This document shows, piece after piece, positions 1-29,822 of a stretch of DNA of 29,822 bases. The notes beneath the pieces are model-generated. The model was not told the origin of the DNA. It did no database searches and saw only the letters and a list, made by a program, of their open reading frames with translations. The translations under genes were made by a program, and so were the position numbers. Positions within the stretch are counted from its first letter, which is position 1. Each line of letters opens with the position of its first letter. Source of the stretch: a virus; the IMG/VR virus record IMGVR_UViG_3300035184_001004, positions 1 through 29,822 of that record. One strand, given 5' to 3'.

Positions 1-327
1 ATTCACAAACTAAAAAACAAATACGAACTGCTATGGGATCAAACATCTCCTGAAGGTTACCTAAAGATCGTAGCAGTACTACAGAAGTATATTGACCAAG
101 GTATCTCAGTAAACACAAGTTATAATCCTGTATTTTACGATGAAGAAAAGATTCCAATGTCTACAATGCTCCAGCATCTTATTATGTTCTATAAGTATGG
201 TGGCAAGCAATTGTACTACTTCAACACATTCGATGGCCAAGGTGAAGTCGATATTGACAAACTGATGGACGAACCACTAGCGTTATCACAACTAGAAGAT
301 GATGACTGCGATTCCTGCGTAATTTAA
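1..327 (+). CDS. nrdA: Ribonucleotide reductase class I alpha subunit, C-terminal part (cut by window start)
   Basis: The window opens in frame inside this gene; 108 codons remain before the TAA. The tail reads as the end of a class I ribonucleotide reductase large chain, with a STGYNP-type stretch (NTSYNPVFY) and a KYGGKQLYYFNT segment typical of NrdA. It ends in an acidic stretch followed by CDSC and two residues. That terminal cysteine pair is the shuttle that passes electrons from thioredoxin or glutaredoxin to the active site in this family. The enzyme reduces ribonucleoside diphosphates to deoxy forms for phage DNA synthesis. nrdB follows after 14 bases, so the two are one operon. The start and catalytic cysteines lie outside the window. 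Confidence 0.93.
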   Translation: MHKLKNKYELLWDQTSPEGYLKIVAVLQKYIDQGISVNTSYNPVFYDEEKIPMSTMLQHLIMFYKYGGKQLYYFNTFDGQGEVDIDKLMDEPLALSQLEDDDCDSCVI

Positions 328-341
328 TAGAGAGAAAAACA

Positions 342-1472: not shown

Positions 1473-1501
1473 CTTACTATAAACTATTTTATAACTAATT
1501 G

Positions 1502-1530
1502 AAAACGCAGGATTCTTTCTTGCGTTTTTT
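1502..1530 (+). terminator. Intrinsic terminator after nrdB
   Basis: AAAACGCA (1502-1509) pairs with TGCGTTTT (1521-1528) around an 11-base loop, followed by a T run. It ends the nrd operon and sits directly against the next promoter. Confidence 0.85.
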
Positions 1531-1532
1531 GC

Positions 1533-1561
1533 TTGACATATCCAACCCTGGACGTTATATT
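1533..1561 (+). promoter_or_regulatory. Sigma70-type promoter for metK
   Basis: A consensus -35 TTGACA (1533-1538), a 17-base spacer and TATATT (1556-1561). The expected start near 1568 gives a leader of about 38 bases before metK. The spacer lacks the CGAATCA element seen at four other promoters here. Confidence 0.85.
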
Positions 1562-1605
1562 ATATACATATTATTAAACAGTAACTCATATACACGGAGA
1601 AAACT

Positions 1606-2682
1606 ATGAACTATATTTTTACTAGCGAAAGTGTTAGTGACGGACATCCAGATAAAGTAGCAGATCAGATTAGTGACGCACTTGTTGATGCCGGATTAAA
1701 GAATGGCGACTCTTCGACCCGAGTAGCAGTTGAGACACTTGTAACTACCAATCACGTTACGTTGGCTGGCGAAGTAAAAAACTTTAATTTAAGTAAAGAC
1801 GAAGTTAAAGAAATTGTGCGCAATAAAGTTAAAGAGATCGGTTATGAGCAAGATGGATTTCACTGGGATAAACTAAACATCTACAACGAAATCCATTCAC
1901 AAAGTGCAGATATCGCATTGGGAACAGACAACTTTGGTGCAGGTGACCAAGGCATTATGTTTGGTTATGCGTGTAACGATAATGATGCATACTTACCAGC
2001 CCCTATCTACTACGCACACGAAGTTCTAAAAGAACTTAAACAGCACCGCGAGAATGTATTAGGACCAGATGCAAAGTCACAGGTAAGCGTACAGTATGAC
2101 GGTGGTAAAGTTAAACGTATTGACCAAGTTGTTATTTCGACACAGCACGTAGAAGGACAAGTAGAACAAGCAAGAAACATCAGTAAGCTTGCTGCAATGA
2201 ATGTACTAGGAGATTTAATTGATGAAAATACTGTCTGGCATCTTAATCCTACTGGCAACTTTGTTATCGGTGGGCCTGATGGTGACGCTGGTGTTACTGG
2301 GCGTAAAATTATTGTTGATACCTATGGGGGTTTTGCTCCTCACGGGGGTGGCGCTTTTAGTGGCAAAGATCCAACAAAGGTTGATAGGTCCGCTGCTTAC
2401 ATGGCGCGGTGGTTGGCGAAAAATGTAGTAGCAGATGAAATGGCTGATTGGTGTAACATTCAGTTGTCATATGCTATCGGCGTGAAGCAACCTACAAGTA
2501 TCTATGTTGAGTCGAACGGTTACAGCAAAAGTATCGAAAAGTTTATTCGCAATGAAATTGATTTGTCACCCAAAGGAATCATTGATAGATTCGATTTATT
2601 CAACTATACTGCGTACAGTAATAACTGTGTATATGGACACTTTGGAAACAAAGATGTTCCTTGGGAGAAATTAGGATGGTAA
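1606..2682 (+). CDS. metK: S-adenosylmethionine synthetase (methionine adenosyltransferase)
   Basis: Makes S-adenosylmethionine from ATP and methionine. The protein matches bacterial MetK along its length: SESVSDGHPDK at the N-terminus (H14, D16), GAGDQGIMFGYA (about 111-122), DAKSQV (K157), IGGPDGDAGVTGRK (about 221-234), and SGKDPTKVDRSAAY (K254, K258). These are the known ATP, metal and phosphate ligands. At 358 residues it is shorter than E. coli MetK (384) and stops at the WEK motif, lacking the last helix. GGAG lies 8 bases before the ATG. It has its own promoter and terminator, so it is expressed alone. In a phage it may feed a DNA methylase or hypermodification enzyme, or replace host S-adenosylmethionine destroyed during infection; neither is shown here. 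Confidence 0.95.
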   Translation: MNYIFTSESVSDGHPDKVADQISDALVDAGLKNGDSSTRVAVETLVTTNHVTLAGEVKNFNLSKDEVKEIVRNKVKEIGYEQDGFHWDKLNIYNEIHSQSADIALGTDNFGAGDQGIMFGYACNDNDAYLPAPIYYAHEVLKELKQHRENVLGPDAKSQVSVQYDGGKVKRIDQVVISTQHVEGQVEQARNISKLAAMNVLGDLIDENTVWHLNPTGNFVIGGPDGDAGVTGRKIIVDTYGGFAPHGGGAFSGKDPTKVDRSAAYMARWLAKNVVADEMADWCNIQLSYAIGVKQPTSIYVESNGYSKSIEKFIRNEIDLSPKGIIDRFDLFNYTAYSNNCVYGHFGNKDVPWEKLGW

Positions 2683-2725
2683 CTGAAGAGATTGTAAGAG
2701 AATCATAAAAAATTACAAGTACTTG

Positions 2726-2755
2726 AAAGCGCAGCATTTTTTGTTGCGCTTTTTT
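2726..2755 (+). terminator. Intrinsic terminator after metK
   Basis: AAAGCGCA (2726-2733) pairs with TGCGCTTT (2745-2752), then a T run. It touches the next promoter, as after nrdB. Confidence 0.85.
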
Positions 2756-2756
2756 C

Positions 2757-2785
2757 TTGACATATGATACGAATCACTGTATAAA
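2757..2785 (+). promoter_or_regulatory. Sigma70-type promoter with CGAATCA spacer element (copy 1)
   Basis: TTGACA (2757-2762), 17-base spacer, TATAAA (2780-2785). CGAATCA occupies spacer positions 8-14 (2770-2776), the same register as in three other promoters of this window. A GTATA follows the -10 by a few bases. It drives the 31-residue membrane peptide gene. Confidence 0.85.
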
Positions 2786-2816
2786 GTAAGTATAGATAAA
2801 AAAGAAAGAATCCCAA

Positions 2817-2912
2817 ATGATACAGTTTATTAAAGTCATGACAGCCGAACTTATTTCTTCCGTAATGAATTTTGTATTAGCGATTGGAATAATTGTTTAC
2901 TTTATTGGTTAA
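2817..2912 (+). CDS. 31-residue single-span membrane peptide
   Basis: A short open frame placed between a strong promoter and the next promoter, with an AGAAAG ribosome-site-like stretch upstream. The 31-residue product has a short N-terminal part with one Lys and one Glu, followed by a hydrophobic stretch of about 18 residues (FVLAIGIIVYFIG at the end), so it is likely a single-pass membrane peptide. No family is recognised. Its placement, alone behind a near-consensus promoter, argues that it is a real early gene rather than chance. Small membrane peptides of this type in phages often act on lysis timing, host membrane proteins or superinfection, but nothing in the sequence tells which. Confidence 0.6.
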   Translation: MIQFIKVMTAELISSVMNFVLAIGIIVYFIG

Positions 2913-2919
2913 ATAAAGC

Positions 2920-2948
2920 TTGACATCTGGTGCGAATCAGTTTATAAA
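2920..2948 (+). promoter_or_regulatory. Sigma70-type promoter with CGAATCA spacer element (copy 2)
   Basis: TTGACA (2920-2925), 17-base spacer with CGAATCA at positions 8-14 (2933-2939), TATAAA (2943-2948), then GTATA downstream. The -35 begins only 8 bases after the stop codon of the membrane peptide. It drives the gene at 2983 and its two partners. Confidence 0.85.
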
Positions 2949-2982
2949 GATTGTATAGACAGTAACAACGAGGACTAAATCA

Positions 2983-3411
2983 ATGGCGTATGTATCACAA
3001 GAAATGAAAAAAGAACTTGCTCCTGGTATCAAAGCAGTATTGAAAAAATACAATGTTAAAGCCAGTATTGCTGTTTATAATCATTCAACTATATGTGTTA
3101 ATATTAAAAGCGGACCCATCGACTTCATTGGTGAAGCCAACAAAAAGAATATGGAGATTGCAGAACGCCGCGGCTCTACTTACTACGATAACAGCGGTTA
3201 TATTCAGGTTAATGACTGTTATCCCGAGACATACGGTGAAGCATCAGACTTCTTGATTAATCTGGTAGCAGCAATGAAAGGTACTAAGTACTTCAACAAT
3301 GATGATAGTCAAAGCGATTATTTTCACCGTTCGCACTATCTCGACATCAATGTAGGTCAATGGAACAAGCCGTACATCTATACTGGCATAGCAATGAAGG
3401 AAGCAGCGTAA
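2983..3411 (+). CDS. Conserved phage protein, LPD29-like
   Basis: 142 residues, preceded by GAGGA at a suitable distance from the ATG. The middle part (about 28-50), with VYNHSTICVNIKSG followed by IDFIG, resembles a small alpha/beta domain common in phage and plasmid proteins and annotated as large polyvalent protein associated domain 29; this is recalled from memory and should be treated as a family hint. A later segment (about 110-135), SHYLDINVGQWNKPY, fits the same family. No catalytic residues can be assigned. First gene of a three-gene early unit; the next start codon overlaps its stop (TAATG). Confidence 0.7.
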   Translation: MAYVSQEMKKELAPGIKAVLKKYNVKASIAVYNHSTICVNIKSGPIDFIGEANKKNMEIAERRGSTYYDNSGYIQVNDCYPETYGEASDFLINLVAAMKGTKYFNNDDSQSDYFHRSHYLDINVGQWNKPYIYTGIAMKEAA

Positions 3412-3572
3412 TGAACACACATGTTAATCGCAAAGTAGTGCAACAACTTGTATTTTCACTTATTCAAAATGGACATGATGTAGAAAAAGTTTATGAAAAA
3501 GTACGTGCCGAGCACGGAGATACTGCGATTAAATTTGTTGCAGATTGCTACTTTCAACTGACTGAGGTATAA
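3411..3572 (+). CDS. Small hypothetical protein (53 residues)
   Basis: A 53-residue protein starting at the ATG that shares its A with the upstream stop (TAATG), a typical coupled start. A longer frame from 3360 exists but would overlap the upstream gene by 50 bases and has no ribosome site. The product is predicted mostly helical (VVQQLVFSLIQNG, VEKVYEKVRAEHGDTAIKF) with no membrane span. No family is recognised. It belongs to the early unit of the genes at 2983 and 3575. Confidence 0.6.
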   Translation: MNTHVNRKVVQQLVFSLIQNGHDVEKVYEKVRAEHGDTAIKFVADCYFQLTEV

Positions 3573-3574
3573 AT

Positions 3575-3835
3575 ATGAAAATGAATATTGATGCAAAACT
3601 GAAAGCCGAAGTATCACGTGGCTATCCAATCTATGTAGTGTATACTTCCGACACAAAGGAAATAGTAGACTGGTATTCATTTGGCGAGAAAATGGCAGAA
3701 TCTTCAACTCGCGCACGTAATAATAAAGTTGGACCAGATACTCACAATTATGGGCTGTGGGATAATTATGTAATTGCACGTGAACAGCACGAAGCGCATT
3801 TGGCAGATTTGGCAGAACCTTGGAGACACCGTTAA
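3575..3835 (+). CDS. Hypothetical protein (86 residues)
   Basis: A small soluble protein of 86 residues, starting 2 bases after the previous stop, with GAGG just upstream. The central part carries VDWYSFGEKMAE followed by a basic run (TRARNNKVG), and the C-terminus is charged with several histidines. No motif or family is recognised. Last gene of the unit begun at 2983; the promoter for the AAA+ ATPase follows within 10 bases. Confidence 0.6.
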   Translation: MKMNIDAKLKAEVSRGYPIYVVYTSDTKEIVDWYSFGEKMAESSTRARNNKVGPDTHNYGLWDNYVIAREQHEAHLADLAEPWRHR

Positions 3836-3843
3836 ATTAATGC

Positions 3844-3872
3844 TTGACATCCTACACGAATCAGTTTATAAC
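3844..3872 (+). promoter_or_regulatory. Sigma70-type promoter with CGAATCA spacer element (copy 3)
   Basis: TTGACA (3844-3849), 17-base spacer with CGAATCA at positions 8-14 (3857-3863), TATAAC (3867-3872). It drives the AAA+ ATPase gene, leaving a leader of about 22 bases with an AGAGGAAA ribosome site. Confidence 0.8.
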
Positions 3873-3901
3873 TAGTTAGTAATCAAAAAGAGGAAACGTA
3901 A

Positions 3902-4876
3902 ATGTCAGTAGTTCAAATCACAAACGGTTCTTATCTCAATAAAGAAGTCACTGGTATATTCCCAGTAGTTGCGGAGATGAAACAATCCAAAGATGGCACA
4001 CACTTCATCACCGTTGATGCAACCGAGACCGAGATTGGTCGCGCAAAAATACGAGTAAAAGTAAAACCAGAAAACGTCGAAGTTGTTTCGTTTAATCGTG
4101 AAACTGACGAACAAGTAATGGATCGCATTGCTGAACGTTTTTCTATTCTGGATGAAATGACTGAAGCCACTATTGATGGCATCGTGCGTGGTATGGTCGT
4201 CTCCGGCCCTCCCGGGATTGGTAAAACATATGGCGTTGAACAGATACTTGAGAAAGATTCGTTGTTTGATGTTATGGCTGATAACCCATTGCGCCACACT
4301 TTCGTCAAAGGTACAATGTCACCTATTGGTCTATATGCGATGCTGTACAAGTATTCAGACTCGAAGAATATCGTAGTTTTGGATGACTGTGATAGTATCT
4401 TGTTTGACGAAAATGCACTAAACATTCTTAAAGCCGCACTTGATAGTGGCAAGAAGCGTATGATTTCTTGGAACTCTGATTCTCACTTTCTTCGTCGTGA
4501 AGGTGTTCCTGACCGTTTCGAGTTCAAAGGTTCAGTAATCTTTATCACTAACTTGAAATTTGACAATGTGCGTTCAACTAAAATTAAAGATCACCTTGAG
4601 GCTATCATGTCACGCTGTCACTATCTTGATTTGACTATGGATTCTACCCGTGATAAAATCTTACGTATTAAGCAGATTGCCCGCGACGGTGGGTTGTTTG
4701 ATACCAAAGGATTGAATAAAGAGCAAGAGATTGATATTGTACAGTTCTTGGAAGATAACCAATCTAAGATGCGTGAAATCTCACTGCGTATGGCACAGAA
4801 ATTAGCAGACTTATGCAAGCTAAGTCCTCACCGGTGGCAGCGACTAGCACAAACAACGTGTATGAAACGAGTGTAA
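3902..4876 (+). CDS. AAA+ family ATPase
   Basis: A 324-residue ATPase. Walker A is GPPGIGKT (102-109), Walker B IVVLDD (157-162), a sensor-1 asparagine sits in IFITNLKF (N217), and a candidate arginine finger is R238 in IMSRCHYLDL. An N-terminal region of about 95 residues and a C-terminal helical lid (about 265-324) flank the core. It does not resemble T4 gp44 closely, so I do not call it the clamp-loader large subunit. Single-gene transcription unit: own CGAATCA promoter, AGAGGAAA ribosome site and own terminator. Position directly before uvsW suggests a role in DNA metabolism or remodelling of a protein complex, but the substrate is unknown. Confidence 0.88.
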   Translation: MSVVQITNGSYLNKEVTGIFPVVAEMKQSKDGTHFITVDATETEIGRAKIRVKVKPENVEVVSFNRETDEQVMDRIAERFSILDEMTEATIDGIVRGMVVSGPPGIGKTYGVEQILEKDSLFDVMADNPLRHTFVKGTMSPIGLYAMLYKYSDSKNIVVLDDCDSILFDENALNILKAALDSGKKRMISWNSDSHFLRREGVPDRFEFKGSVIFITNLKFDNVRSTKIKDHLEAIMSRCHYLDLTMDSTRDKILRIKQIARDGGLFDTKGLNKEQEIDIVQFLEDNQSKMREISLRMAQKLADLCKLSPHRWQRLAQTTCMKRV

Positions 4877-4883
4877 AATAATT

Positions 4884-4912
4884 AACAGGCACCTAATGGG
4901 TGTCTGTTTTTT
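4884..4912 (+). terminator. Intrinsic terminator after the AAA+ ATPase gene
   Basis: ACAGGCACC (4885-4893) pairs with GGTGTCTGT (4899-4907), one G-U pair, 5-base loop, then a T run. It abuts the uvsW promoter. Confidence 0.85.
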
Positions 4913-4913
4913 C

Positions 4914-4942
4914 TTGACTTTGATCCCAAAAAATGTTAGAAT
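4914..4942 (+). promoter_or_regulatory. Promoter placed for leaderless uvsW mRNA
   Basis: TTGACT (4914-4919), 17-base spacer, TAGAAT (4937-4942), then exactly 6 bases to the uvsW ATG. A normal start site, 7 bases after the -10, falls on the A of the start codon. No ribosome-binding sequence lies between. The same geometry occurs before the primase and the replicative helicase. Confidence 0.75.
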
Positions 4943-4948
4943 AATATT

Positions 4949-6394
4949 ATGAAGAAATGTACAATTGTAATTAAAGATGAAGTCAACGTAAAACTTGAAG
5001 GCCTTGACCCAGCTACCCGCAGAAAATGTTCTGATAAGTTGAAGTTCTTTTTGCCACATGCATACCACATGCCTGCCTATAAGTTGGGACGATGGGATGG
5101 AACTGTACGATTCTGTGATATTGGTGGCAGAACTTATCTAAACTTATTAGATGATTTACTCCCAATCATTATGCAATCTGGGTATGAAATAGATATTGAT
5201 GATCGCAGAGAACATCAAGTAATGGAGTTTGAACAAGTCACTGAGGACTATTGGGGAGATAAGTGTTGGCCAGAAGGTCATCCTATTGCTGGTCAACCAA
5301 TTAGATTACGTGATTATCAAGTAGATGTAGTAAACAAGTTTATTGAGACACCACAGGCACTTCAGGAGATCGCTACCGGTGCAGGTAAAACTATTATGAC
5401 TGCTACTCTATCTAAAATTGTAGAAAAATACGGTCGTTCTATTGTTATTGTGCCGAACAAGGATCTAGTACGCCAAACAGAGGAAGATTATATAAACTGT
5501 GGTCTAGATGCTGGCGTTTACTTCGGTGACCGCAAAGACTTTGGCAAGACACATACTATATGTACATGGCAATCACTCAGTTCCTTGTTGAAGAAAACAA
5601 AGAAAGGCGAAGGTGACATTGTTGAATTCATCGAAGGTGTAGTATGTATCATGGTAGATGAAGTTCACCAAGCGAAAGCAGATGTTCTTAAAGATTTACT
5701 TACTGGTATATTCGCTAACGTCCCACTTCGATGGGGATTGACTGGTACTATTCCTAAGTCCGATCATGAGTTTGCTACCATTCGTAGTTCTCTGGGAGAA
5801 GTAATTAATCGTTTGGCAGCAAAAGACTTGCAGGACATCGGTGTTCTGGCCAACTGCCATGTTAACGTAGTACAAACGCAAGAAACATCAGAGTATACAG
5901 ATTATCAAGGTGAGCTAAAGTTTTTATTGGAAGACAAAAAGCGCCAAGTATTCTTGGCAAATCTTATTACCGAAGTATCACAAACCGGAAACACACTCGT
6001 ACTAATCGGACGTATAAACGTCGGAGTTGCTTTACAGGAGTTACTACCAGATGCTACATTCGTTCAGGGTGCGATGAAAACAACTGACCGCAAAGAGGCA
6101 TATACGGAAATCAACGAGGCTACAAATTCAATTACTATTGCTACTTATGGCGTTGCTGCTGTTGGTATTAACATCCCTCGTATTTTCAACTTAGTTCTAT
6201 TAGAGCCGGGAAAGTCTTTTGTAAGAGTTATTCAGTCTATCGGACGCGGTGTTCGTGTAGCAAAAGATAAAGATTCTGTTCAAATATGGGATGTAACAAG
6301 TAGATGTAAATTTTCAAAAAGACATTTAACAGAACGAAAGAAATTCTATAAAGATGCTGAATATCCATTCAGTGTAGAAAAGGTAAAATACTAA
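4949..6394 (+). CDS. uvsW: UvsW-type superfamily 2 helicase
   Basis: A 481-residue DNA/RNA helicase of the T4 UvsW type, which unwinds branched DNA and R-loops and controls the switch from origin- to recombination-dependent replication. The N-terminal part (about 1-90), with KLGRWDGTVRF, matches the UvsW substrate-binding domain. The helicase core follows: a Q-type motif RLRDYQ (about 119-124), Walker A ATGAGKT (142-148), DEVH box (237-240), GLTGT (about 263-267), and the C-terminal motif VIQSIGRGVR. The start chosen is the only one that keeps the whole N-terminal domain. It has no ribosome site; promoter spacing implies a leaderless mRNA. First gene of a long overlapping operon; its stop overlaps the next ATG (TAATG). 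Confidence 0.93.
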   Translation: MKKCTIVIKDEVNVKLEGLDPATRRKCSDKLKFFLPHAYHMPAYKLGRWDGTVRFCDIGGRTYLNLLDDLLPIIMQSGYEIDIDDRREHQVMEFEQVTEDYWGDKCWPEGHPIAGQPIRLRDYQVDVVNKFIETPQALQEIATGAGKTIMTATLSKIVEKYGRSIVIVPNKDLVRQTEEDYINCGLDAGVYFGDRKDFGKTHTICTWQSLSSLLKKTKKGEGDIVEFIEGVVCIMVDEVHQAKADVLKDLLTGIFANVPLRWGLTGTIPKSDHEFATIRSSLGEVINRLAAKDLQDIGVLANCHVNVVQTQETSEYTDYQGELKFLLEDKKRQVFLANLITEVSQTGNTLVLIGRINVGVALQELLPDATFVQGAMKTTDRKEAYTEINEATNSITIATYGVAAVGINIPRIFNLVLLEPGKSFVRVIQSIGRGVRVAKDKDSVQIWDVTSRCKFSKRHLTERKKFYKDAEYPFSVEKVKY

Positions 6395-6894
6395 TGAAAA
6401 TTCTAACTCCAGAAAACAGATGTTTTGAGATGAATAGTCTCCCTGAAGAAATTGATGATATTCGATATTGTGTTATGGATGTTACTGATAAGAAAGATCC
6501 AGACTTCTTTTTCATCCCTCTTGTATTCATTGAAACCTTCAACGCACCCAGTATTAGTTTGAGTATTGGGCCACATATGATTGAAATGCCAATTGATTGG
6601 AATATTCTAATTGGTGATCGTGATATCGGAGACCTAGAGTTCATTCCATTGACCAGCATTAACGAGCGTAGTTTTGATACAATTCTAACTAATCCACTCG
6701 GTGGGTTTACAATGGACTGGCAGCCGATTACGATTAATAACGTGTTTGCAGATGTTAAGTGGTTCTTCCCTAAATTAAAGTTCGGTCATATTCTTGCTAT
6801 ACCGCTTGAATATGGTGACAAGCCAAAGTGTGCATATTTTGTAAAAGACTTGAACCGCATTCCTGATGTATTAAGCAGTTATGATTTCTTCTGA
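6394..6894 (+). CDS. Conserved phage hypothetical protein next to uvsW
   Basis: 166 residues, translationally coupled to uvsW by TAATG. The protein is rich in beta-strand-like hydrophobic stretches (FFFIPLVFIETF, ISLSIGPHMIEM, LEFIPLTSINER) and contains WFFPKLKFGHILAIPLEYG and CAYFVKDLNRIPD near its end. I believe similar proteins occur beside uvsW in other aquatic T4-like phages, but I cannot name a function. No signal peptide, membrane span or catalytic motif is visible. Position inside the replication operon suggests a role in replication or late transcription control. Confidence 0.75.
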   Translation: MKILTPENRCFEMNSLPEEIDDIRYCVMDVTDKKDPDFFFIPLVFIETFNAPSISLSIGPHMIEMPIDWNILIGDRDIGDLEFIPLTSINERSFDTILTNPLGGFTMDWQPITINNVFADVKWFFPKLKFGHILAIPLEYGDKPKCAYFVKDLNRIPDVLSSYDFF

Positions 6895-20819: not shown

Positions 20820-21071
20820 ATGGCTAAAGTACACGAATCATATGACGCAGGTCAGTTCCTAACGGGCTCACTTGTACACTTCGACATCACAAAAACTGCT
20901 GGCAGTATTGTTGCAAAGCACATCGTTGAAACAGTAGGCACACGTGCAACTGTTGTTATTCTAGGCGCAGGCGCAGCCCGCGTTGCAGTAGAAAATAACG
21001 GCGCATGGTCAGCAGCTTCACTAACAGCAGCACTAGCTGATGATTATACAGCGACAGACTTCGATTACTAA
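20820..21071 (+). CDS. Small late protein, probably virion (83 residues)
   Basis: 83 residues from the ATG behind GGAG; the longer frame from 20790 starts inside the leader hairpin. The protein is Ala-, Val- and Thr-rich with few charges and no membrane span (VVILGAGAARVAVENNGAW), like small decoration or head-tail proteins. Single-gene unit: own late promoter and a UUCG-loop terminator. Codon use favours strong codons, in keeping with high expression. No family recognised. Confidence 0.65.
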   Translation: MAKVHESYDAGQFLTGSLVHFDITKTAGSIVAKHIVETVGTRATVVILGAGAARVAVENNGAWSAASLTAALADDYTATDFDY

Positions 21072-21126: not shown

Positions 21127-21560
21127 AATAATACAGTATCTTAATTTATATAAAGTTGTTGATAAATACGTATGATATAAATGTACGTTTATTTGGAGAA
21201 ATAATAATGGCAACTGGATACAAAGGTCTGCGCATGAGCGGAAATCTAAAACAACTTAATATGGGTAATATGAAAGTTCAAAAAGGCATTGACTTTATTG
21301 AACTAGCAGAACGAGGATTAATAACTGAGCCACATACCATTACATCTACTGTTGGTACTGGACACAAAAAGACTGCAACTGGTGATCCAATTGGCGCTGC
21401 TGCGTCATCCACCTCAGTTGATCTAGGAAATATACTGAATAATTCGTCTCTTGCATATGATTATGGCGAAGTAGTAGATACGACTGACACTGCATCAACT
21501 CGCGTATGGGCAGTGCGTAGAGCAGTTGCATCAAGTCTCGCCGCTGCCAATGCCGCCCCT
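21127..21560 (+). repeat. Adhesin cassette repeat, copy 1
   Basis: Late promoter, leader and first 115 or so codons shared with copies at 22845, 24523, 26053 and 27511. Blocks in common include ACAGTATCTTAATTTA upstream, GATAAATAC, TTTGGAGAAATAATAATGG and the start of the gene. Similarity ends at the junction to the variable C-terminal domain. Confidence 0.9.
21161..21168 (+). promoter_or_regulatory. Late promoter GATAAATA, adhesin gene 1
   Basis: GATAAATAC, 38 bases before the ATG, with a GGAG ribosome site in between. Same placement in all five cassettes. Confidence 0.8.
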
Positions 21561-22793
21561 GTATATCCAAATTACGACTGGACTACCCCCACTAGAACAG
21601 ATGTTTACAGTTATAAAAATATCCCTGGCAGATTTAAAATTCCAAGTGTTGATGGTGGCGGCGCTGTATTTTCGCCAACTGCGAACAACGCTGGTTGGAA
21701 CTTTGGACGAGCAGTGGCTCAATCAGATGATTATTATGTGGTAGCTGCACCGGGTCTTTGGTACAATAGCAAACAAAACTTGGGTGCGGTATTCGTTTAT
21801 AGAAAATCAGATAACGCACTTCTTCACACCATTCAGCCGCCAGTCGCAGATCAGTACCAAGGCATGGGCTTTGGTACACGGTTGGAAATACATGACAATA
21901 AGATATTGATACAGACAAACGAATATGCATACCTATATGATGCAGTAACAGGTAATACTATACATAAATTTACGCCTACGTTGTTGGGCGGCGGCGGTCA
22001 ATCAAGCTGGGGTCTTACAAATATAAATATGACCGAAAACTATTCAATGATATCAGCAGCAGACAGTTATAGATTTGGTACTCCAAATAAAGCGTGGGTC
22101 TTTGATAATAATACAGGTGCATTAGTACATATAGTCGAAGAACAAACCGCAGATAGTGCTGGTCCTTACCCGTATGGCGCAATGTATGGAATCGATTGTG
22201 CGATGAATGATAATTATTTTGCAGTAGGTTCTTCGGGCGGTGACAACGCAGATCTTGCCCTATCAGCGAACGGATATGTTGAGATTTATAATATGTCTAG
22301 TGGCACAATAGCGAGACGACTACAAGTACCAGCCGGCACAGCGGCAATAAATGATTTCTTTGGTAAGAGAATTGATATTGATGGTAACAGAATAGCAGTA
22401 GCATGTCCAGGAAAAGATACAATTTATATATTTGATATAACTACTGGCACACTTCTTAATACAGTAACCGGATTAACGTTTCATGCTTCAGTTGCAGCCA
22501 ATTATAAAGTAAGTGATATTTCACTATCCGGTAACGCGGTTGCAATTGCAACATCACCACATTCTGGGAATACTATTAATGTTGAGGTAGTCGATATTTC
22601 AACTTCTGTAAAATTATTGTCGTTTAATTCTCTTCCAAGCGGTAGCCAGGTTGCAGCGAACTATCCATCCCAATTCTTCGGTTCTAGTATAAACTTACGA
22701 GGCGGCGAGGTAATTATAGGATCTCCTGCATATCCAAGCAATTATGAAGAAAATAAAGGCGCAATTTATCGCTACATAGCACCAGTACTATAA
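21207..22793 (+). CDS. Adhesin-like virion protein 1, FG-GAP-type propeller domain
   Basis: 528 residues from the ATG behind GGAG; the frame is open upstream through the promoter but that is not coding. Residues 1-115 are the shared region (ATGYKGLRMSGN start, DFIELAERGLITEPHT in the middle). The rest has repeating units of the type DNKILIQTNEYAYLYDAVTG, MNDNYFAVGSSGGDN and GNRIAVACPGKDTIYIFD, each a strand pair with a gap and a YxxDxxTG turn. Seven or so such units suggest a beta-propeller of the FG-GAP/PQQ type. Closest to gene 2 in its C-terminal domain. Likely a host-surface-binding protein of tail fibre or capsid. Confidence 0.8.
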   Translation: MATGYKGLRMSGNLKQLNMGNMKVQKGIDFIELAERGLITEPHTITSTVGTGHKKTATGDPIGAAASSTSVDLGNILNNSSLAYDYGEVVDTTDTASTRVWAVRRAVASSLAAANAAPVYPNYDWTTPTRTDVYSYKNIPGRFKIPSVDGGGAVFSPTANNAGWNFGRAVAQSDDYYVVAAPGLWYNSKQNLGAVFVYRKSDNALLHTIQPPVADQYQGMGFGTRLEIHDNKILIQTNEYAYLYDAVTGNTIHKFTPTLLGGGGQSSWGLTNINMTENYSMISAADSYRFGTPNKAWVFDNNTGALVHIVEEQTADSAGPYPYGAMYGIDCAMNDNYFAVGSSGGDNADLALSANGYVEIYNMSSGTIARRLQVPAGTAAINDFFGKRIDIDGNRIAVACPGKDTIYIFDITTGTLLNTVTGLTFHASVAANYKVSDISLSGNAVAIATSPHSGNTINVEVVDISTSVKLLSFNSLPSGSQVAANYPSQFFGSSINLRGGEVIIGSPAYPSNYEENKGAIYRYIAPVL

Positions 22794-22818
22794 GAATAGA
22801 AACAAATTATAATACAAA

Positions 22819-22844
22819 GAAAGCGTCCTTCGGGGCGCTTTTTT
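22819..22844 (+). terminator. Terminator of adhesin gene 1
   Basis: AAGCGTCC pairs with GGGCGCTT around TTCG, then a T run. The same sequence recurs at 24500, 27485 and 28922. Confidence 0.9.
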
Positions 22845-23280
22845 AGTAATATAGTACCTTAATTTATATAAAATTGATGATAAATACATATAATATAAAT
22901 ATACATCTATTTGGAGAAATAATAATGGCAACTGGATACAAAGGTCTGCGCATGAGCGGAAATCTAAAACAACTTAATATGGGTAATATGAAAGTTCAAA
23001 AAGGCATTGATTTTATTGAACTAGCAGAACGAGGATTGATAACTGAGCCACATACCCCTACATCTACTGTTGGTACTGGACACAAAAAGAGTGCAAGTGG
23101 TAATCCTATTGGTGCCGCTGCGTCATCTACATCAGTTGATATGGGAAATATACTGAAAGTTTCGACTCTTTCATATGACTATGGTGAAGTATCTACGGCT
23201 GCTGAAGTTACAGAAACAAACAAATGGGCAGTGCGTAGAGCAGTTGCTGCCAGTATGGCAGTCAGTAGTCCATCTGGTGG
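22845..23280 (+). repeat. Adhesin cassette repeat, copy 2
   Basis: Promoter, leader and N-terminal coding part nearly the same as copy 1. It is closest to copy 3: both encode the KVSTLSYDYGEVSTAAEVTE stretch with almost identical DNA. Confidence 0.9.
22879..22886 (+). promoter_or_regulatory. Late promoter GATAAATA, adhesin gene 2
   Basis: GATAAATAC, 38 bases before the ATG. A second TATAAATA (22894-22901) lies closer to the gene and could be a weaker extra start. Confidence 0.8.
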
Positions 23281-24472
23281 TTCTTCTGCTATCGTAGATT
23301 GGACTGGTACGGTGACTACTTTTAATCAGCTTAATCCATATACTGGTTCTCTTGCTAGTTACTTTGGTACTAGTGTGGCGACTGGGAATAATTATTATCT
23401 AGGGGGCGGCTTTGGCACCCCTCATCCTGATGGAAGTACGAGTTCGGGTGAAGTGATCGTATATGATGCGTCTGACGATTCAATACTACATACTTTAGTG
23501 AATCCAAATGTAAATAGAACACCGCAGTCCGACAACTTCGGCCGACATGCTGCAATTGATGGCAATAAGGCATTGATAGTTGCATATGGAGAAAGTTCTG
23601 AAAGAGGCACTTCCGAGATGGGAGGCGTTGGCAGAGGATACTATTATGATTTAGAAACAGGCGTTTTGTTACATGCTTTTGAACCAACCGAAAACGATCC
23701 ATCATTAACTTCTAATACGCAATACAGATACTTCTACCCGCATGTGGGAGATACTAAAGGTAATTACTCAATACTTGGCAGCAACAGTGTGGGATATGAT
23801 CACCCGGATCAGGCATGGGTCTATGATAATACTACCGGTAATTTAGTTTATAGAGTAGAAGACACATATAGCACCAACTCAGTAGACCTTGATTTCGCTA
23901 CAGATGTGGCAATCAATGATACTCACTTTGTAATAAGTATGCCGGGGGCACATTCCACCGCCAATACCGGTAACAGCATGGGCTCTGTCGTAGTTCACAC
24001 ATTATCTGATGGGCTTTTTGCTCGAACAATTGCGTTACCATCGGTAGCGACTGGTACGCTTTTAGCCAGAGCCAGTAACGATAACTTTGGTAAAACTATG
24101 GCGATAGACGGCAATAAACTTGCAATTGCGGGACCGGGCAAAGAGAATGTATTTGTATTTGATGTAACTGATGGTTCGCATCTTCATACCGTGTCAACCG
24201 CTTCTGGCAAAGTAATCCGTGATATTGATATTTCAGGTAACTACGTTGCAGTTAGTTACACGGACTGGACAAAAGTCGATGTTATTGATATTACTGATGG
24301 TTCAGTTGCACAATCACTTGTTAATCCAGATGCCGATCCATCATCTGACGGAATTGACTATTTTGGAATTACTATTTCTTTTAACGGCGGCAACTTAGTT
24401 GTTGGCGCAAGCGGCGAAGACAGTGTTGGCCATAGTCGCGCTGGCGCAATTTATAGATTTACTGTTTCATAA
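22925..24472 (+). CDS. Adhesin-like virion protein 2, FG-GAP-type propeller domain
   Basis: 515 residues. N-terminal region as in gene 1. The C-terminal domain is a propeller with repeats such as SGEVIVYDASDDSILHTL, DGNKLAIAGPGKENVFVFD and NGGNLVVGASGEDSVGHS, similar in plan to gene 1 but diverged across the domain. The junction with the shared part has a Ser/Gly-rich linker (SSPSGGSSA). GGAG ribosome site and single-gene unit with UUCG terminator. Probably a receptor-binding module. Confidence 0.8.
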   Translation: MATGYKGLRMSGNLKQLNMGNMKVQKGIDFIELAERGLITEPHTPTSTVGTGHKKSASGNPIGAAASSTSVDMGNILKVSTLSYDYGEVSTAAEVTETNKWAVRRAVAASMAVSSPSGGSSAIVDWTGTVTTFNQLNPYTGSLASYFGTSVATGNNYYLGGGFGTPHPDGSTSSGEVIVYDASDDSILHTLVNPNVNRTPQSDNFGRHAAIDGNKALIVAYGESSERGTSEMGGVGRGYYYDLETGVLLHAFEPTENDPSLTSNTQYRYFYPHVGDTKGNYSILGSNSVGYDHPDQAWVYDNTTGNLVYRVEDTYSTNSVDLDFATDVAINDTHFVISMPGAHSTANTGNSMGSVVVHTLSDGLFARTIALPSVATGTLLARASNDNFGKTMAIDGNKLAIAGPGKENVFVFDVTDGSHLHTVSTASGKVIRDIDISGNYVAVSYTDWTKVDVIDITDGSVAQSLVNPDADPSSDGIDYFGITISFNGGNLVVGASGEDSVGHSRAGAIYRFTVS

Positions 24473-24499
24473 AAGAATAAAAACAAATTATAATACAAA

Positions 24500-24525
24500 G
24501 AAAGCGTCCTTCGGGGCGCTTTTTT
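24500..24525 (+). terminator. Terminator of adhesin gene 2
   Basis: Same AAGCGTCC/GGGCGCTT stem and TTCG loop as after gene 1, followed by T6. Confidence 0.9.
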
Positions 24526-24960
24526 AATAATACAGTATCTTAATTTACGTGAATTTGCTGATAAATACATATAATATAAATATACATCTATTTGGAGAAA
24601 TAATAATGGCAACTGGATACAAAGGCCTTCGCATGAGCGGGAATGTAAAACAACTTAATATGGGTAATATGAAAGTTCAAAAAGGCATTGATTTTATTGA
24701 ACTAGTAGAACGAGGATTAATAACTGAACCACATACCCCTACATCTACTATTGGTACTGGCCACAAAAAGGGCGCAAGTGGTAATCCAATTGGTGCCGCT
24801 TCGTCATCTACATCTGTTGATATGGGAAATATACTGAAAGTTTCGACTCTTTCATATGACTATGGTGAAGTATCTACGGCTGCTGAAGTTACAGAAACAA
24901 ACAAATGGGCAGTACGTAGAGCATTTGCTGCAAGTCGTGCTCGGGAAAATGCAATTCAAC
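24523..24960 (+). repeat. Adhesin cassette repeat, copy 3
   Basis: Upstream part has the ACGTGAATTTGCTG variant that is also found, with one change, in copy 5, while the coding part is closest to copy 2. This mosaic pattern points to recombination between cassettes. Confidence 0.9.
24560..24567 (+). promoter_or_regulatory. Late promoter GATAAATA, adhesin gene 3
   Basis: GATAAATAC, 38 bases before the ATG; same leader as gene 2. Confidence 0.8.
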
Positions 24961-25931
24961 CTGCATTACCAGGAGGAGTACTTTTTGAAGGACAATACCC
25001 CGCGCTTTATACTACTTGGATTGCACCAGAGGGAGTGACTTCAGTTTGTGTCCTTGCGGTCGGCAGAGGTGGCAATGGTTCCCATGGTGGTGGCGCAGGC
25101 GGCGGACTAGTATGGGCTAATGATATTCCCGTAATACCAGGAAATTCATACGATGTTGTCATAGATTTTGATGACAATTCACCATATAATGTTCCGGTGG
25201 ATACAGGTTCATACTTTATTGATCCCTTTACCGTTATGGCATTTAGTGGAAAGAGAGGGTCCAGTAATGGTAACACGCATCCCAGTAACAACTATGTTGC
25301 AGCCGGCGGTGGTTTTCGATCAACCGTAGCCTCATTCGGCGGCGGACACGGTGGCAGTGGCGGACCAGGCAGGAACGATGGGACATACTCTCCTAGTTTG
25401 GCATCAAAGCAAATGGGTGGTGGCGGAGGCGCTGGCGGTTATTCTGGTAATGGCGGCGACGGCGGTGGCACTATTCCAAATGGGGGTCCTGGTGTTTTAT
25501 CTGGGCAGGCTGGTTCAGGTGGCGGCGGTGGCGGTGGCGCAAAATCACCAAATAGCTTTTCTCCAGTTGCCCAAGGCTCAGGATTTTACGGCGGTGGCGG
25601 CGGTGGTGTTGGACTTTACGGCGAAGGTGCTAGTGGCGCCGGTGGCACACACTACAACAACTCCGAGAATATCGTCATGGTAGGGAACGGCGGCAGTGGC
25701 GGTCAACGTGCTGATCACAATGGTGATGATATAGCCCCATTTTGGGGCGTTGGCGGCAAATATGGAGGCGGTGCCACCGCTGCGTACAAGCCAAACGGCC
25801 AGTTTACTAGCTCTTTTGGCGCCGCGGGTGCAGTGCGAATTATATGGGGTGCCAATAGAGCATTTCCGTCTACCAATGTTGGACCATCGGATGAGCTTCC
25901 TGGTGGCGAGGCCGAGACGTTGGGAGTATAA
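24606..25931 (+). CDS. Adhesin-like virion protein 3, glycine-rich domain
   Basis: 441 residues. N-terminal region shared with the others. From about residue 150 the protein has a beta-strand entry (WIAPEGVTSVCVLAVGRG) and long runs of glycine (GGGGGAGGYSGNGGDGGG, GGGGGGGA, YGGGGGGVGLYG). Such patterns are known from the glycine-rich, polyglycine-II receptor-binding adhesins of T-even-type phages (gp38 of phage S16) and from glycine-rich tail fibre tips. The last part returns to ordinary composition (GAVRIIWGANR). GGC/GGT codons raise local GC. Likely a tip adhesin of a different fold from the propeller paralogs. Confidence 0.8.
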   Translation: MATGYKGLRMSGNVKQLNMGNMKVQKGIDFIELVERGLITEPHTPTSTIGTGHKKGASGNPIGAASSSTSVDMGNILKVSTLSYDYGEVSTAAEVTETNKWAVRRAFAASRARENAIQPALPGGVLFEGQYPALYTTWIAPEGVTSVCVLAVGRGGNGSHGGGAGGGLVWANDIPVIPGNSYDVVIDFDDNSPYNVPVDTGSYFIDPFTVMAFSGKRGSSNGNTHPSNNYVAAGGGFRSTVASFGGGHGGSGGPGRNDGTYSPSLASKQMGGGGGAGGYSGNGGDGGGTIPNGGPGVLSGQAGSGGGGGGGAKSPNSFSPVAQGSGFYGGGGGGVGLYGEGASGAGGTHYNNSENIVMVGNGGSGGQRADHNGDDIAPFWGVGGKYGGGATAAYKPNGQFTSSFGAAGAVRIIWGANRAFPSTNVGPSDELPGGEAETLGV

Positions 25932-26027
25932 TGAGAATTATAATAACAATGTAGTCATCAATTAAATTATTTAAAACTGAATCTCTGATTACACAGTGTA
26001 TCTAATTTAATTAAAACAAAAACTTAG

Positions 26028-26052
26028 AAAGCGTCCTACGGGGCGCTTTTTT
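26028..26052 (+). terminator. Terminator of adhesin gene 3, UACG loop
   Basis: Same stem as the neighbours, but the loop is TACG, still a stable UNCG tetraloop. It lies about 97 bases after the stop; the space between (25932-26027) is AT-rich with no gene. Confidence 0.9.
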
Positions 26053-26490
26053 AGTAATACAGTATCTTAATTTATATAAAATTGATGATAAATACATATA
26101 ATATAAATGTATTTTCATTCGGAGAAATAATAATGGCAACTGGATACAAAGGTCTGCGCATGAGCGGAAATCTAAAACAACATACTATGGGTAACATGAG
26201 AGTTCAAAAAGGCATTGATTTTATTGAACTAGCAGAGCGAGGATTAATAACTGAACCACATACCCCCACATCTACTGTTGGTACTGGACACAAAAAGAGT
26301 GCAAGTGGTAATCCAATTGGTGCTGCGGTGACATCTACGTATGTTGATATGGGAAATATACTGAATCAGGTGAATATTGAATATGATTATGGCGAAGTAA
26401 CTTCGGCTACCGAAGTCGCAGAAACAGACAAATGGGCATTGCGTAGAGCAGTTGCTGCCAGTATGGCAGTCAGTAGTTCACCTGCTGGTT
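26053..26490 (+). repeat. Adhesin cassette repeat, copy 4
   Basis: Shared promoter and leader with a changed spacer (TTTTCATTCGGAG) and a shared N-terminal part. Its end (RAVAASMAVSS) matches copy 2. Confidence 0.9.
26087..26094 (+). promoter_or_regulatory. Late promoter GATAAATA, adhesin gene 4
   Basis: GATAAATAC, 38 bases before the ATG, GGAG between. Confidence 0.8.
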
Positions 26491-27452
26491 CATTAGCTGA
26501 TTGGACTAAAACTTGGGAAATGACTTCAAACTTTGCAACTTATGTGGTTGAAGATACATCTGCACGGCACGATCCTGCACTCGCGGGTTATTCATTTCAA
26601 GGCGGGGTTGATTCATTGGCAGCCGCAGAACCATTGCAATGGAGCGATGATGGTTACATGCTTTATATTCAGGGTGTGGCGAATAAATGGATACAACATG
26701 GAGTATCAACCGCATGGGATGCATCAAGTATTATTGACAGTGCAGTCGCAACAACAACAACCTCTGCTGCAACTGTTGCACAGGAAACTGCTCGTCTGAA
26801 ATTTAGAGTAGTGGATGGTGGCAATAAGGTAATAAGTTATCGCGGTTACGGTACTACACAATTAGTATATATGGATGAATTGACTACCCCAGGCGATTTG
26901 ACAAGTAAAGTAAATACTACTACAAATACTTGGGCACCACAATCAATGATTAATTACAATGGGGCTTATTGGAGTATTGATTTTATGACTCCAGACGGGA
27001 CAAAACTTTATGTTATGACTTCGGCTGGTGGCTTTACATTTGATACCGGATCGCAAATGTGGAACCTATCAGGGTCAGGGATCACTGTTATTGCGTTTAC
27101 GCTTACAACTCCATGGGACTTAACATCAATTGTTGCTTCAAATAGTGTAGCATTTAGTCATTCACACAGCATCCGGAACAATGCGTTCAATATGCTTCAC
27201 TTTACCCCTGATGGCGAGACAATGTATACAATGACACAAAATGCCAGCTATTCATTAACATTAAGAGAATTTAATTTGCCAACTGCATGGGATGTAGCTA
27301 ATGCTAGCAAAAATCCAGTTGACGTTAAATTGTTTGGTCAAAATGTTGACCCAAAATGTGCAACATTCTCGGGAGATGGCAAGAAAATACATGTGTATGA
27401 TAATGGCGTGGTTAAAACAATCGATCTTGAGGCGGAACAAAACGCAGGATAA
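26133..27452 (+). CDS. Adhesin-like virion protein 4, WD40-like propeller domain
   Basis: 439 residues. After the shared N-terminal region, the C-terminal domain has repeats of the type WSDDGYMLYIQG, TPDGTKLYVMTSAGG, TPDGETMYTMTQN and SGDGKKIHVYDNG, each followed by a strand and a TPWDLTSI- or TAWDVANA-like turn. This is the pattern of a seven-bladed propeller of the WD40/YVTN type often found in phage fibres. It is related to gene 5 and unlike genes 1-3. Own late promoter and terminator. Confidence 0.8.
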   Translation: MATGYKGLRMSGNLKQHTMGNMRVQKGIDFIELAERGLITEPHTPTSTVGTGHKKSASGNPIGAAVTSTYVDMGNILNQVNIEYDYGEVTSATEVAETDKWALRRAVAASMAVSSSPAGSLADWTKTWEMTSNFATYVVEDTSARHDPALAGYSFQGGVDSLAAAEPLQWSDDGYMLYIQGVANKWIQHGVSTAWDASSIIDSAVATTTTSAATVAQETARLKFRVVDGGNKVISYRGYGTTQLVYMDELTTPGDLTSKVNTTTNTWAPQSMINYNGAYWSIDFMTPDGTKLYVMTSAGGFTFDTGSQMWNLSGSGITVIAFTLTTPWDLTSIVASNSVAFSHSHSIRNNAFNMLHFTPDGETMYTMTQNASYSLTLREFNLPTAWDVANASKNPVDVKLFGQNVDPKCATFSGDGKKIHVYDNGVVKTIDLEAEQNAG

Positions 27453-27484
27453 TCTAAGAAACTATATTTTTAAATTAATTGTAA

Positions 27485-27510
27485 AAAAGCGTCCTTCGGG
27501 GCGCTTTTTT
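27485..27510 (+). terminator. Terminator of adhesin gene 4
   Basis: AAGCGTCC/GGGCGCTT stem with TTCG loop and T6, preceded by an A run. Confidence 0.9.
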
Positions 27511-27960
27511 AATAATACAGTATCTTAATTTACGTGAATTTGTTGATAAATACATATAATATAAATGTACGTTTATTTGGAGAAATAATAATGGCAACTA
27601 GATATAAAGGCCTTCGCATGGGCGGGAGTTTTAAACAACCGAAAATGGGTAATATGAAAGTTCAACAAGGTGGAATCGATTTTATTGAGATCAGTGCTAG
27701 AGGATTAATAACTGACCCACATTCTCCTACGTCTACTATTGGGTATGGTCATAGAAAAGACGATAGTGGTAATCCCATCCGTCCATCGACTACCTCTACC
27801 TCGGTTGATTTGGGCAAACTGCGAGAAACAACAACAATGGAATATAATTATGGAGATATAACATCTTCTGTCCCAGCGGTAGATGCAGATATATGGGTGA
27901 GTCGTAGACGATTTGACCCAAGAAGTAGTTCCTCTTCCGCAGCACTCACAAGTAGGTTCA
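27511..27960 (+). repeat. Adhesin cassette repeat, copy 5 (most diverged)
   Basis: Promoter and leader close to copy 3, but the coding part has many changes (RYKGLRMGGSF in place of GYKGLRMSGNL, DPHSPTSTIGYGH, an extra Gly after VQQ). It retains the same layout and junction. Confidence 0.85.
27545..27552 (+). promoter_or_regulatory. Late promoter GATAAATA, adhesin gene 5
   Basis: GATAAATAC, 38 bases before the ATG. Confidence 0.8.
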
Positions 27961-28895
27961 CTGCAACATGGCTACCAAATGATCCCAGTCTTGTAATAAC
28001 TCAAGGACCATATAGTAATAGTCCAGCAGTCGCCGCCGTTCGTTCTTATGCTATGACTTGGAACTCTGATGGCACGAAATACTATATGTTCTATTACAAT
28101 GATACACTATCAGTTGATGGTGTAAACACGTATGAAGTGTCTACCCCATATGATGTTAGAACACAGACGAGCGGTATAACTGGAGTAATGCATTCTCCGA
28201 GTGTTGGTGGAGAGTTAGGTTACGGTTCAGGTACCAACGGGGGCGCACAATTAGTAGATGGTGATTCTAAATTATTCTATTCCAATGGTACGACCTTACG
28301 AATGGCTACATTGGAGACACCTGGAGAGTTTAGTAGTACATTGACTGAAACACAAGAAGTAGCTATTTCTACATTTACAGACAATATTACTCATAAAGTC
28401 AATGCTATAACAATGTCATTTGATGGTACGAAGGTTTTACTAAGCTTTGCAGGTCACACAATTACTAATGCTGACGGCTTGCTAATGAATGGAGGTAGTG
28501 TGGGTGGTGGGGTCGCAACATTTGATGTGCCAACCGCGTTTGATTTAACATCTATCTCGCGCAGTGATTTAATCTCTATTACTAATCTCGGCTTAAATGA
28601 AGTGGATTACAGCGGTCGCAACCTTTACGGTGCCATAAAGCAACAGATAAACGACACTGGTACATTATTATGGGCGATGGAGAACTCTTCATCCGGTTCA
28701 ATAAATGCATTTTCGTTATCAACTCCATGGGATGTAAATACACGAACCAAACTTAGCCGCGTTGGGCCAAGTCAATCTGGACCAAATACTAGTTTGAATG
28801 GCAAGATATTTAACGTTTCGCCTGATGGCAACTATATTACAGCCGGTAGAGTTCAGGGCGTCTTCTTTACGTGGGACTACTCCGCTAATAACTAA
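27591..28895 (+). CDS. Adhesin-like virion protein 5, WD40-like propeller domain
   Basis: 434 residues. The shared N-terminal region is the most diverged of the five. The C-terminal domain has units such as NSDGTKYYMFYYND, MSFDGTKVLLSFAGH, SPDGNYITAGRVQG, with TPYDVRT- and TPWDVNTRT-type turns between, as in gene 4. Probably a seven-bladed propeller that binds a host surface ligand. It ends the run of paralogs and is followed by the same terminator. Confidence 0.8.
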   Translation: MATRYKGLRMGGSFKQPKMGNMKVQQGGIDFIEISARGLITDPHSPTSTIGYGHRKDDSGNPIRPSTTSTSVDLGKLRETTTMEYNYGDITSSVPAVDADIWVSRRRFDPRSSSSSAALTSRFTATWLPNDPSLVITQGPYSNSPAVAAVRSYAMTWNSDGTKYYMFYYNDTLSVDGVNTYEVSTPYDVRTQTSGITGVMHSPSVGGELGYGSGTNGGAQLVDGDSKLFYSNGTTLRMATLETPGEFSSTLTETQEVAISTFTDNITHKVNAITMSFDGTKVLLSFAGHTITNADGLLMNGGSVGGGVATFDVPTAFDLTSISRSDLISITNLGLNEVDYSGRNLYGAIKQQINDTGTLLWAMENSSSGSINAFSLSTPWDVNTRTKLSRVGPSQSGPNTSLNGKIFNVSPDGNYITAGRVQGVFFTWDYSANN

Positions 28896-28921
28896 TATAA
28901 AAACATAAAAATAAAAACTTA

Positions 28922-28948
28922 GAAAGCGTCCTTCGGGGCGCTTTTTTT
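28922..28948 (+). terminator. Terminator of adhesin gene 5
   Basis: AAGCGTCC/GGGCGCTT stem with TTCG loop and T7. The next late promoter begins 3 bases later. Confidence 0.9.
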
Positions 28949-28950: not shown

Positions 28951-28958
28951 GATAAATA
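28951..28958 (+). promoter_or_regulatory. Late promoter GATAAATA for the first RIHG protein
   Basis: GATAAATAA, 70 bases before the ATG. The leader holds ATCTCGT (28970-28976) and ACGAGAT (29003-29009), a perfect 7-bp pairing near the 5' end of the mRNA. Confidence 0.7.
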
Positions 28959-29028: not shown

Positions 29029-29418
29029 ATGGCAAGAATACATGGCGCAGCAAGTGCTGGAGAAAATCTATCAGGTAATATAAACTTTTACACACTATTT
29101 GTAACGGGACTGGATATCACCATAACGGGGGATGTGACTGATCAGACACAGCAGAACTTCGAAGATGTATGTAACTTGATTAATCTTGTTGCGCAACCAG
29201 TGATAATGAATAACCCTCTTTCTGTAACACTAACCGGATTAGCACCAACACTAACTGGAACTGGAATGATTTATAAATTTGCAGTAGAACATGGTAACGT
29301 ATTTGAACGTAATAGTGATAACGTTGCAGTACTAAAAGAAATATTTCATGGGGTGACTATCAATGGTACGTTACTGTCATCTTCTAACATCGAATTTGCG
29401 ATGTCAGATTTATTATAA
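29029..29418 (+). CDS. Small virion-type protein with RIHG N-terminus, copy A
   Basis: 129 residues from the ATG behind GGAG; a frame from 28990 has no ribosome site and would lie in the leader. The N-terminus ARIHGAASAGENLSGNINFY and then GLDITITGD matches the protein at 29620 (TRIHGLGNLTGHIY, GFVITVKG), so the two are paralogs. Beta-rich protein with NLINLVAQPVIMNN in the middle. Late promoter and adjacency to the adhesins suggest a small virion component. Confidence 0.7.
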   Translation: MARIHGAASAGENLSGNINFYTLFVTGLDITITGDVTDQTQQNFEDVCNLINLVAQPVIMNNPLSVTLTGLAPTLTGTGMIYKFAVEHGNVFERNSDNVAVLKEIFHGVTINGTLLSSSNIEFAMSDLL

Positions 29419-29619: not shown

Positions 29620-29822
29620 ATGGCATTAGTAACAAGAATTCACGGATTAGGGAACTTAACAGGACATATATACTCGTCGGGAGCAAAAGGTTTTGTAATT
29701 ACAGTTAAAGGTCCAAAGTGGCTTTATGAAGTTGGCGAAGAAACTGCTCAAGCTAAAACAGATTTAGTTGCTCTGTACGATAGATTAGTAGCACTTACAG
29801 CAACAGTTACGGATCACGCAGC
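29620..29822 (+). CDS. Small virion-type protein with RIHG N-terminus, copy B (cut by window end)
   Basis: 67 full codons before the window ends. Strong GAGGAG site before the ATG. The start ALVTRIHGLGNLTGHIY and GFVITVKGPKWLY align with the protein at 29029; after that the sequence turns helical (GEETAQAKTDLVALYDRLVAL), which is not seen at the same place in copy A. Probably another small virion protein; its C-terminus is outside the window. Confidence 0.7.
   Translation, partial: MALVTRIHGLGNLTGHIYSSGAKGFVITVKGPKWLYEVGEETAQAKTDLVALYDRLVALTATVTDHA

Follow-up and report, generated by a model that had tools for sequence, protein, structure and literature searches.

Architecture of the array

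How phages change or widen their binding is a central question, for which the model systems are mostly enterobacterial tailspikes. A locus in IMG/VR record IMGVR_UViG_3300035184_001004, a linear record from an uncultured large virus of bacteria that was analysed over its whole length (29,822 bases; hereafter the window), raises it in a particular form: what are five successive genes that begin alike and end differently, and how have their differing ends come about? The five intact open reading frames (ORFs) lie head to tail on the + strand (21207-28895), each within a cassette comprising a late-type promoter, a gene with a shared N-terminal segment of ~115 residues (the anchor) and a different C-terminal domain (the head), and a UUCG-type terminator. 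At a probability of about 0.72, we read the array as encoding five late-expressed virion adhesins with a common anchor and heads diversified by recombination.

Cassette 1 (21207..22793, 528 amino acids (aa); anchor 21207..21551) and cassette 2 (22925..24472, 515 aa; anchor 22925..23272) carry FG-GAP propeller heads. Cassette 3 (24606..25931, 441 aa; anchor 24606..24944) has a glycine-rich head, whilst cassette 4 (26133..27452, 439 aa; anchor 26133..26480) and cassette 5 (27591..28895, 434 aa), the latter with a divergent anchor (27591..27941), have WD40-like heads. An earlier sequence-only reading of this DNA had described five consecutive units with a promoter 38 bases before each start codon. 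The coordinates of these units hold, and all five retain intact frames, promoters, ribosome sites and terminators. The sequence GATAAATA stands exactly 38 bases before the ATG in every cassette (21161..21168, 22879..22886, 24560..24567, 26087..26094 and 27545..27552 on the + strand for cassettes 1 to 5), and the same GGAGAAATAATA ribosome-site leader precedes each ORF. Across the window, GATAAATA occurs 10 times on the + strand and never on the - strand; TGATAAATA occurs seven times on the + strand against 0.57 expected, with none on the other strand. The late promoter of T4 is TATAAATA, and TGATAAATA is probably this phage's T4-type late promoter.

Each stop codon is followed by a hairpin of the GCGTCC-TTCG-GGGCGC type and a T run, with a TACG loop in copy 3. 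A sigma-70 promoter scan and a simple terminator scan of the window were uninformative, with counts at the level of shuffled sequence; the latter did not list the five cassette terminators, probably because the T run is partly paired, and these were therefore tested by folding. All five (+ strand; 22817..22844 with a UUCG loop, 24498..24525, 26026..26051 with a UACG loop, 27482..27510, and 28921..28946, where the insertion ends) had stems of 11-13 bp, a four-base loop and z-scores of -4.3 to -6.0 relative to shuffled sequence.

Shared anchor and recombination between copies

The fixed N-terminus proposed from the letters alone stands for copies 1-4, which are mutually 74-93% identical over residues 1 to ~115, whereas it applies only loosely to copy 5, at 49-54% identity to the other four. 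All five copies match the profile of the anchor family, in which D29, G37, I39, T40, T48, G50, G59 and G87 are conserved. Sequence searches of Pfam, PHROGs and PDB gave no match to this family, which appears to be previously undescribed. The window anchors were monophyletic with respect to the anchors of all relatives (support 99/98), and duplication within this lineage is therefore their most likely origin.

The block of ~480 bp that spans terminator, promoter, leader and anchor forms a direct repeat, 75-100% identical over most of its length in copies 1-4. Permutation tests on the polymorphic columns of this block (columns treated as exchangeable, p-values approximate) identified a tract shared by copies 2 and 3 (p < 0.0002), where a 98-bp exact match (23135..23232 and 24816-24913, + strand) is attributable to gene conversion or recombination. 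Copies 3 and 5 share a tract upstream of the promoter (p < 0.0002), and copies 1 and 2 also share one (p = 0.0002). Copy 3 is accordingly a mosaic, as had been suggested, with an upstream tract like copy 5 and a coding tract like copy 2. The anchors of copies 2 and 3 are 93% identical and their heads belong to different families. The longest exact repeats between copies measured 103 and 98 bp. Distributed across the array, these conversion tracts demonstrate recombination among the copies, as read from their alignment. With regard to other routes of diversification, the five units all repeat in the same direction on one strand and no recombinase was found among the ORFs scanned, at odds with Mu-type inversion of tail-fibre cassettes; as to a diversity-generating retroelement, no reverse transcriptase was present among the 20 ORFs scanned in this contig, which is a fragment and was not searched for template or variable repeats.

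Three types of head

Outside the shared segment the copies are 21-33% identical, a background level for most pairs. BLASTP related head 1 to head 2 (31% over 388 aa, E 3e-44) and head 4 to head 5 (E 2e-5), and found no relation between head 3 and the other four. The three types that had been named at the outset (FG-GAP propeller in 1 and 2, glycine-rich in 3, WD40-like propeller in 4 and 5) were recovered from BLASTP, Pfam and structural models. FG-GAP_2 scored above the Pfam cut-off in cassettes 1 and 2, and head 3, with 27.6% glycine, matched the uncharacterised PHROG family phrog_4474 (E 2e-43). The description of heads 4 and 5 as WD40-like is more provisional, drawing on a modest AlphaFold model and on homology to a related contig, L188, in which PD40 is above the Pfam cut-off. 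From shallow alignments, AlphaFold modelled head 2 as a propeller of ~28 strands with a predicted local distance difference test score (pLDDT) mostly of 60-93, and head 5 as a less certain propeller. In Foldseek, both models matched PDB beta-propellers, and head 2 also matched viral FG-GAP proteins.

In INPHARED searches, head 4 had six matches, from roseophages or siphoviruses, head 3 had a single weak one and heads 2 and 5 had none; the similarity of cassette 4 to roseophage tail-region proteins is distant. Lentibacter phage ICBM2 (L167, 2875-6879) has a stretch in which larger genes, one of them resembling head 4, are interleaved with genes whose annotation is tail assembly chaperone; these are possibly adhesin-chaperone pairs.

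A variable site between structural genes

The genomic setting of the array was examined in ~90 related contigs, gathered through a nearby DUF6267 gene and both flanking genes. The array proved to be an insertion of ~8 kb between an upstream gene of 83 aa (20820..21071, + strand) and a downstream gene of 129 aa (29029..29418, + strand), the latter with its own late-type promoter (28951..28958, + strand). These are homologues of EST35_0233 and EST35_0234, respectively, of phage PA5oct; in PA5oct-like phages the two homologues are adjacent and both are annotated 'structural protein, ESI-MS/MS' (electrospray ionization tandem mass spectrometry). Among 45 distinct related haplotypes, 33 have 94-280 bp between the flanking genes, an interval that holds little beyond a terminator and a late promoter. 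The same site is filled in the other 12 by 1.3-6.2 kb of other adhesin or fibre genes, among them a 405-aa or 372-aa protein with the Major tropism determinant N-terminal domain (Mtd_N, PF18454), an Mtd_N protein of 1,035 aa that also has laminin-G domains, an FG-GAP protein of 526 aa that resembles heads 1 and 2 but has a different N-terminus, and a repetitive fibre of ~1,600 aa accompanied by a second fibre gene. Strong PF18454 matches (E to 2e-18) were found in five proteins at two sites of the relatives, namely the array site and a site on the terminase side. The window's anchor was absent at this site from all 12 otherwise occupied haplotypes, and the array from all 45 other haplotypes.

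The two flanking proteins and that of an ORF starting at 29620 have similar beginnings (xxxHxxxxAGxxLTG or IHGxxxxxxxL); as two adjacent homologues were detected by mass spectrometry in PA5oct, the three seem to be paralogues in a small family of structural proteins. In two contigs (L146:15533-16390 and L124:15552-16799), the fibre genes found where the array would lie end in repeated 'DxGxIT' motifs (HDFGAITETSD..NYGAITDTD..YDRGLITDSD), which resemble conserved motifs of the anchor and are possibly related to them. No clues to the host emerged when genome contigs were scanned with the downstream flanking gene.

Head exchange on the anchor in related viruses

Relatives of the anchor came to light only by way of neighbouring genes and by searching related records in full with profiles. 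Direct anchor searches of INPHARED, viral contigs and genome contigs returned nothing, nor did whole-protein and exact-DNA-pattern searches; scans of the collections used short exact peptide or DNA patterns that may miss records near the window, and the absence of a second array is therefore weak evidence. Profiles detected the anchor in 14 of the 50 related records, at E 1e-22 to 1e-46, with one copy in each as opposed to five in the window. Where the neighbourhood was read, these genes adjoin the terminase gene, lie within a few genes of it or belong to the preceding gene run.

In the relatives the anchor stands alone or is joined to heads of four or more kinds. FG-GAP heads are present in L208 and the L178 group, WD40-like heads in L188 and L185/L186, a third kind in L191 and a fourth in L230 and L231, whilst the anchors of L201 (115 aa) and G022 (102 aa) are headless. 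In L188, L191 and L208 the anchor and 60 bp upstream are 79-88% identical in DNA and the heads are unmatched. Just behind the new head of L191 lies an orphan ORF, which matches the FG-GAP head of L208 at 84% identity over 461 bp; judged by this match, it is direct evidence for natural head replacement on the anchor, a frozen swap in which the old head has been kept. Neither order nor heads are conserved in related phages, given that the array is missing from the 45 haplotypes and that the 14 contigs differ in their heads. The comparison of related contigs thereby supports the modular arrangement put forward by the sequence-only reading, in which interchangeable heads are swapped on a common segment.

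Anchor-only genes of 102-115 aa were seen at L201:6841-7188, L204:227-574 and G022:C1:4991-5251, those in L201 and L204 being followed by an Mtd_N fibre gene. Such genes could encode adaptors that work with heads from separate genes, or they could be what is left once a head has been lost. In L175 (reverse complement, 56-6775), an anchor-only gene is directly preceded by one for a protein at least 2,239 aa long, with many repeats like the head type of cassettes 4 and 5. Next to or near the terminase gene in L198, L200, L202, L206, L230 and L231, a conserved gene pair (~344-363 and 251-263 aa) takes the place of the adhesins carried by other relatives; its second gene is 2-oxoglutarate oxygenase-like by eye.

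Away from the array, the window encodes a complete S-adenosylmethionine synthetase homologue (1606-2682), ~50% identical to metK genes in phage records.

Proposed model and alternative explanations

Comparison at the sequence level demonstrates the cassette structure, the insertion of the array amid structural genes at a site that varies, and the exchange of heads in relatives. We propose that the ~115-residue N-terminal segment docks each protein on the virion and that the C-terminal domain is presented for binding, presumably to the host surface; several heads may be present together on one particle. Each cassette would be its own transcription unit of promoter, gene and terminator, and could therefore be gained or lost without disturbing its neighbours. 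Homologous recombination between the ~480 bp direct repeats could alter the number of copies, convert anchors from copy to copy and provide an anchor with a new head. The array occupies a site at which relatives carry other adhesin or fibre genes. Since related viruses carry the anchor segment with other domains, this virus family appears to mix and match surface-binding parts.

Several observations weigh against this proposal. Structure prediction, which had been suggested for both parts of the proteins, yielded a propeller for head 2 and less certainly for head 5, but no confident fold for the shared region, with pLDDT < 50 in both AlphaFold models (cassettes 2 and 5); such values fit, without demonstrating, a segment whose folding requires oligomerisation or the particle. 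Members of the anchor family have no known biochemistry, solved structure or mass spectrometry record, and the family is absent from PA5oct and SCTP-2. No relative has more than one copy of the anchor, such that the tandem state is known from one contig. Beta-propellers, moreover, serve many roles besides receptor binding.

Among other explanations, the proteins may be on the virion but decorate the capsid, providing Hoc-like adhesion to glycans, mucus or particles, and not act as receptor-binding proteins of the tail. FG-GAP and lectin-like folds suit weak surface adhesion, the relatives' anchor genes adjoin the terminase gene in the structural gene run, and the array itself lies among small structural proteins with no obvious tail-fibre operon adjoining. 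Location in the particle is not fixed by gene order, however, and the same two sites also hold Mtd_N proteins with PHROG 'tail' or 'tail fiber' matches, so that we regard capsid decoration as rather unlikely, if still a serious contender. It is doubtful that the array is a store of heads in which function or display is limited to one cassette or a few and the rest act as recombination donors: the ~480 bp direct repeats, the conversion tracts and the frozen swap in L191 would be expected of such a store, but five intact frames with their promoters, ribosome sites and terminators would be superfluous if it were silent.

That these are late proteins with some other role outside the virion, for instance as secreted or intracellular factors, would accommodate the versatility of propellers and an anchor with no known function. 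Such a role is improbable given that no signal peptide is apparent by eye, that homologues of the flanking genes are virion proteins and that the other occupants of the site are adhesins or fibres. We consider it very improbable that the tandem array is an assembly chimera joining head variants of co-occurring strains at shared anchors. It comes from a single contig, some copies share exact repeats of 103 and 98 bp, and a search of viral contigs with an exact DNA pattern turned up no second copy, yet the longest exact repeat, at only 103 bp, is shorter than the usual 150-base read, which makes an assembly error unlikely; each copy also has its own anchor and leader variants, and the terminator-to-promoter joins are regular. 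Returning to the reading of five late-expressed virion adhesins, a bolder version would make the anchor an undescribed docking module serving as a universal adaptor, used by phages of this lineage alone or with interchangeable propeller, glycine-rich and other heads at two genomic sites, with the five-cassette array, an expansion in this phage, displaying several heads at once and being reshuffled via its own direct repeats. We advance this version tentatively, at somewhat short of even odds.

Comparison with known systems

The array can be placed beside several known adhesin systems. The tailspike proteins (TSPs) TSP1-TSP4 of Ackermannviridae (CBA120, S117) undergo homologous recombination through conserved 5' ends, seen in the laboratory, which changes specificity (PMC11414711); a branched complex is assembled from their gp10-like XD and TD domains, TSP4 supplying the single virion anchor, and their bodies are beta-helical enzymes (PMC10253068). 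The window resembles this cluster in its several neighbouring genes for putative adhesins, with related N-terminal modules that would serve for docking and different C-termini that would bind receptors. It differs in that all five proteins carry the same full-length N-terminus, that the heads are FG-GAP, glycine-rich and WD40-like with no beta-helix bodies, and that no gp10-like domain was detected in sequence searches, the anchors giving no Pfam or PHROG match to XD/TD modules and the anchor profile no PDB match. The jumbo phages Alcyoneusvirus RaK2 and K64-1 also have many adhesin genes with conserved N-terminal domains (PMC10253068), but these N-termini resemble CBA120 modules, unlike the window anchor with its lack of database matches.

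Mtd-type adhesins share both sites in the relatives and likewise combine a short fixed N-terminus with variable C-terminal domains, although the anchor sequences are unrelated and none of the five window proteins matches PF18454. The nearest cultured relatives found are the PA5oct-like Pseudomonas jumbo phages (Arenbergviridae, Wroclawvirus), which have syntenic primase, helicase and flanking structural genes but lack the array and the anchor family; their proteins are 27-55% identical, and the terminase of one related contig is 55% identical to that of a PA5oct-like phage. This lineage offers natural anchor-only, single-head and five-head forms together with a preserved swap intermediate, and modular exchange is therefore testable by population comparison; the anchor could also serve as a marker for adhesins in uncultured jumbo-like phages. 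In sum, the array resembles the multi-tailspike clusters of Ackermannviridae and RaK2 but is not a member of them by the features tested, and it differs from them in its new, unrelated anchor family and its propeller heads.

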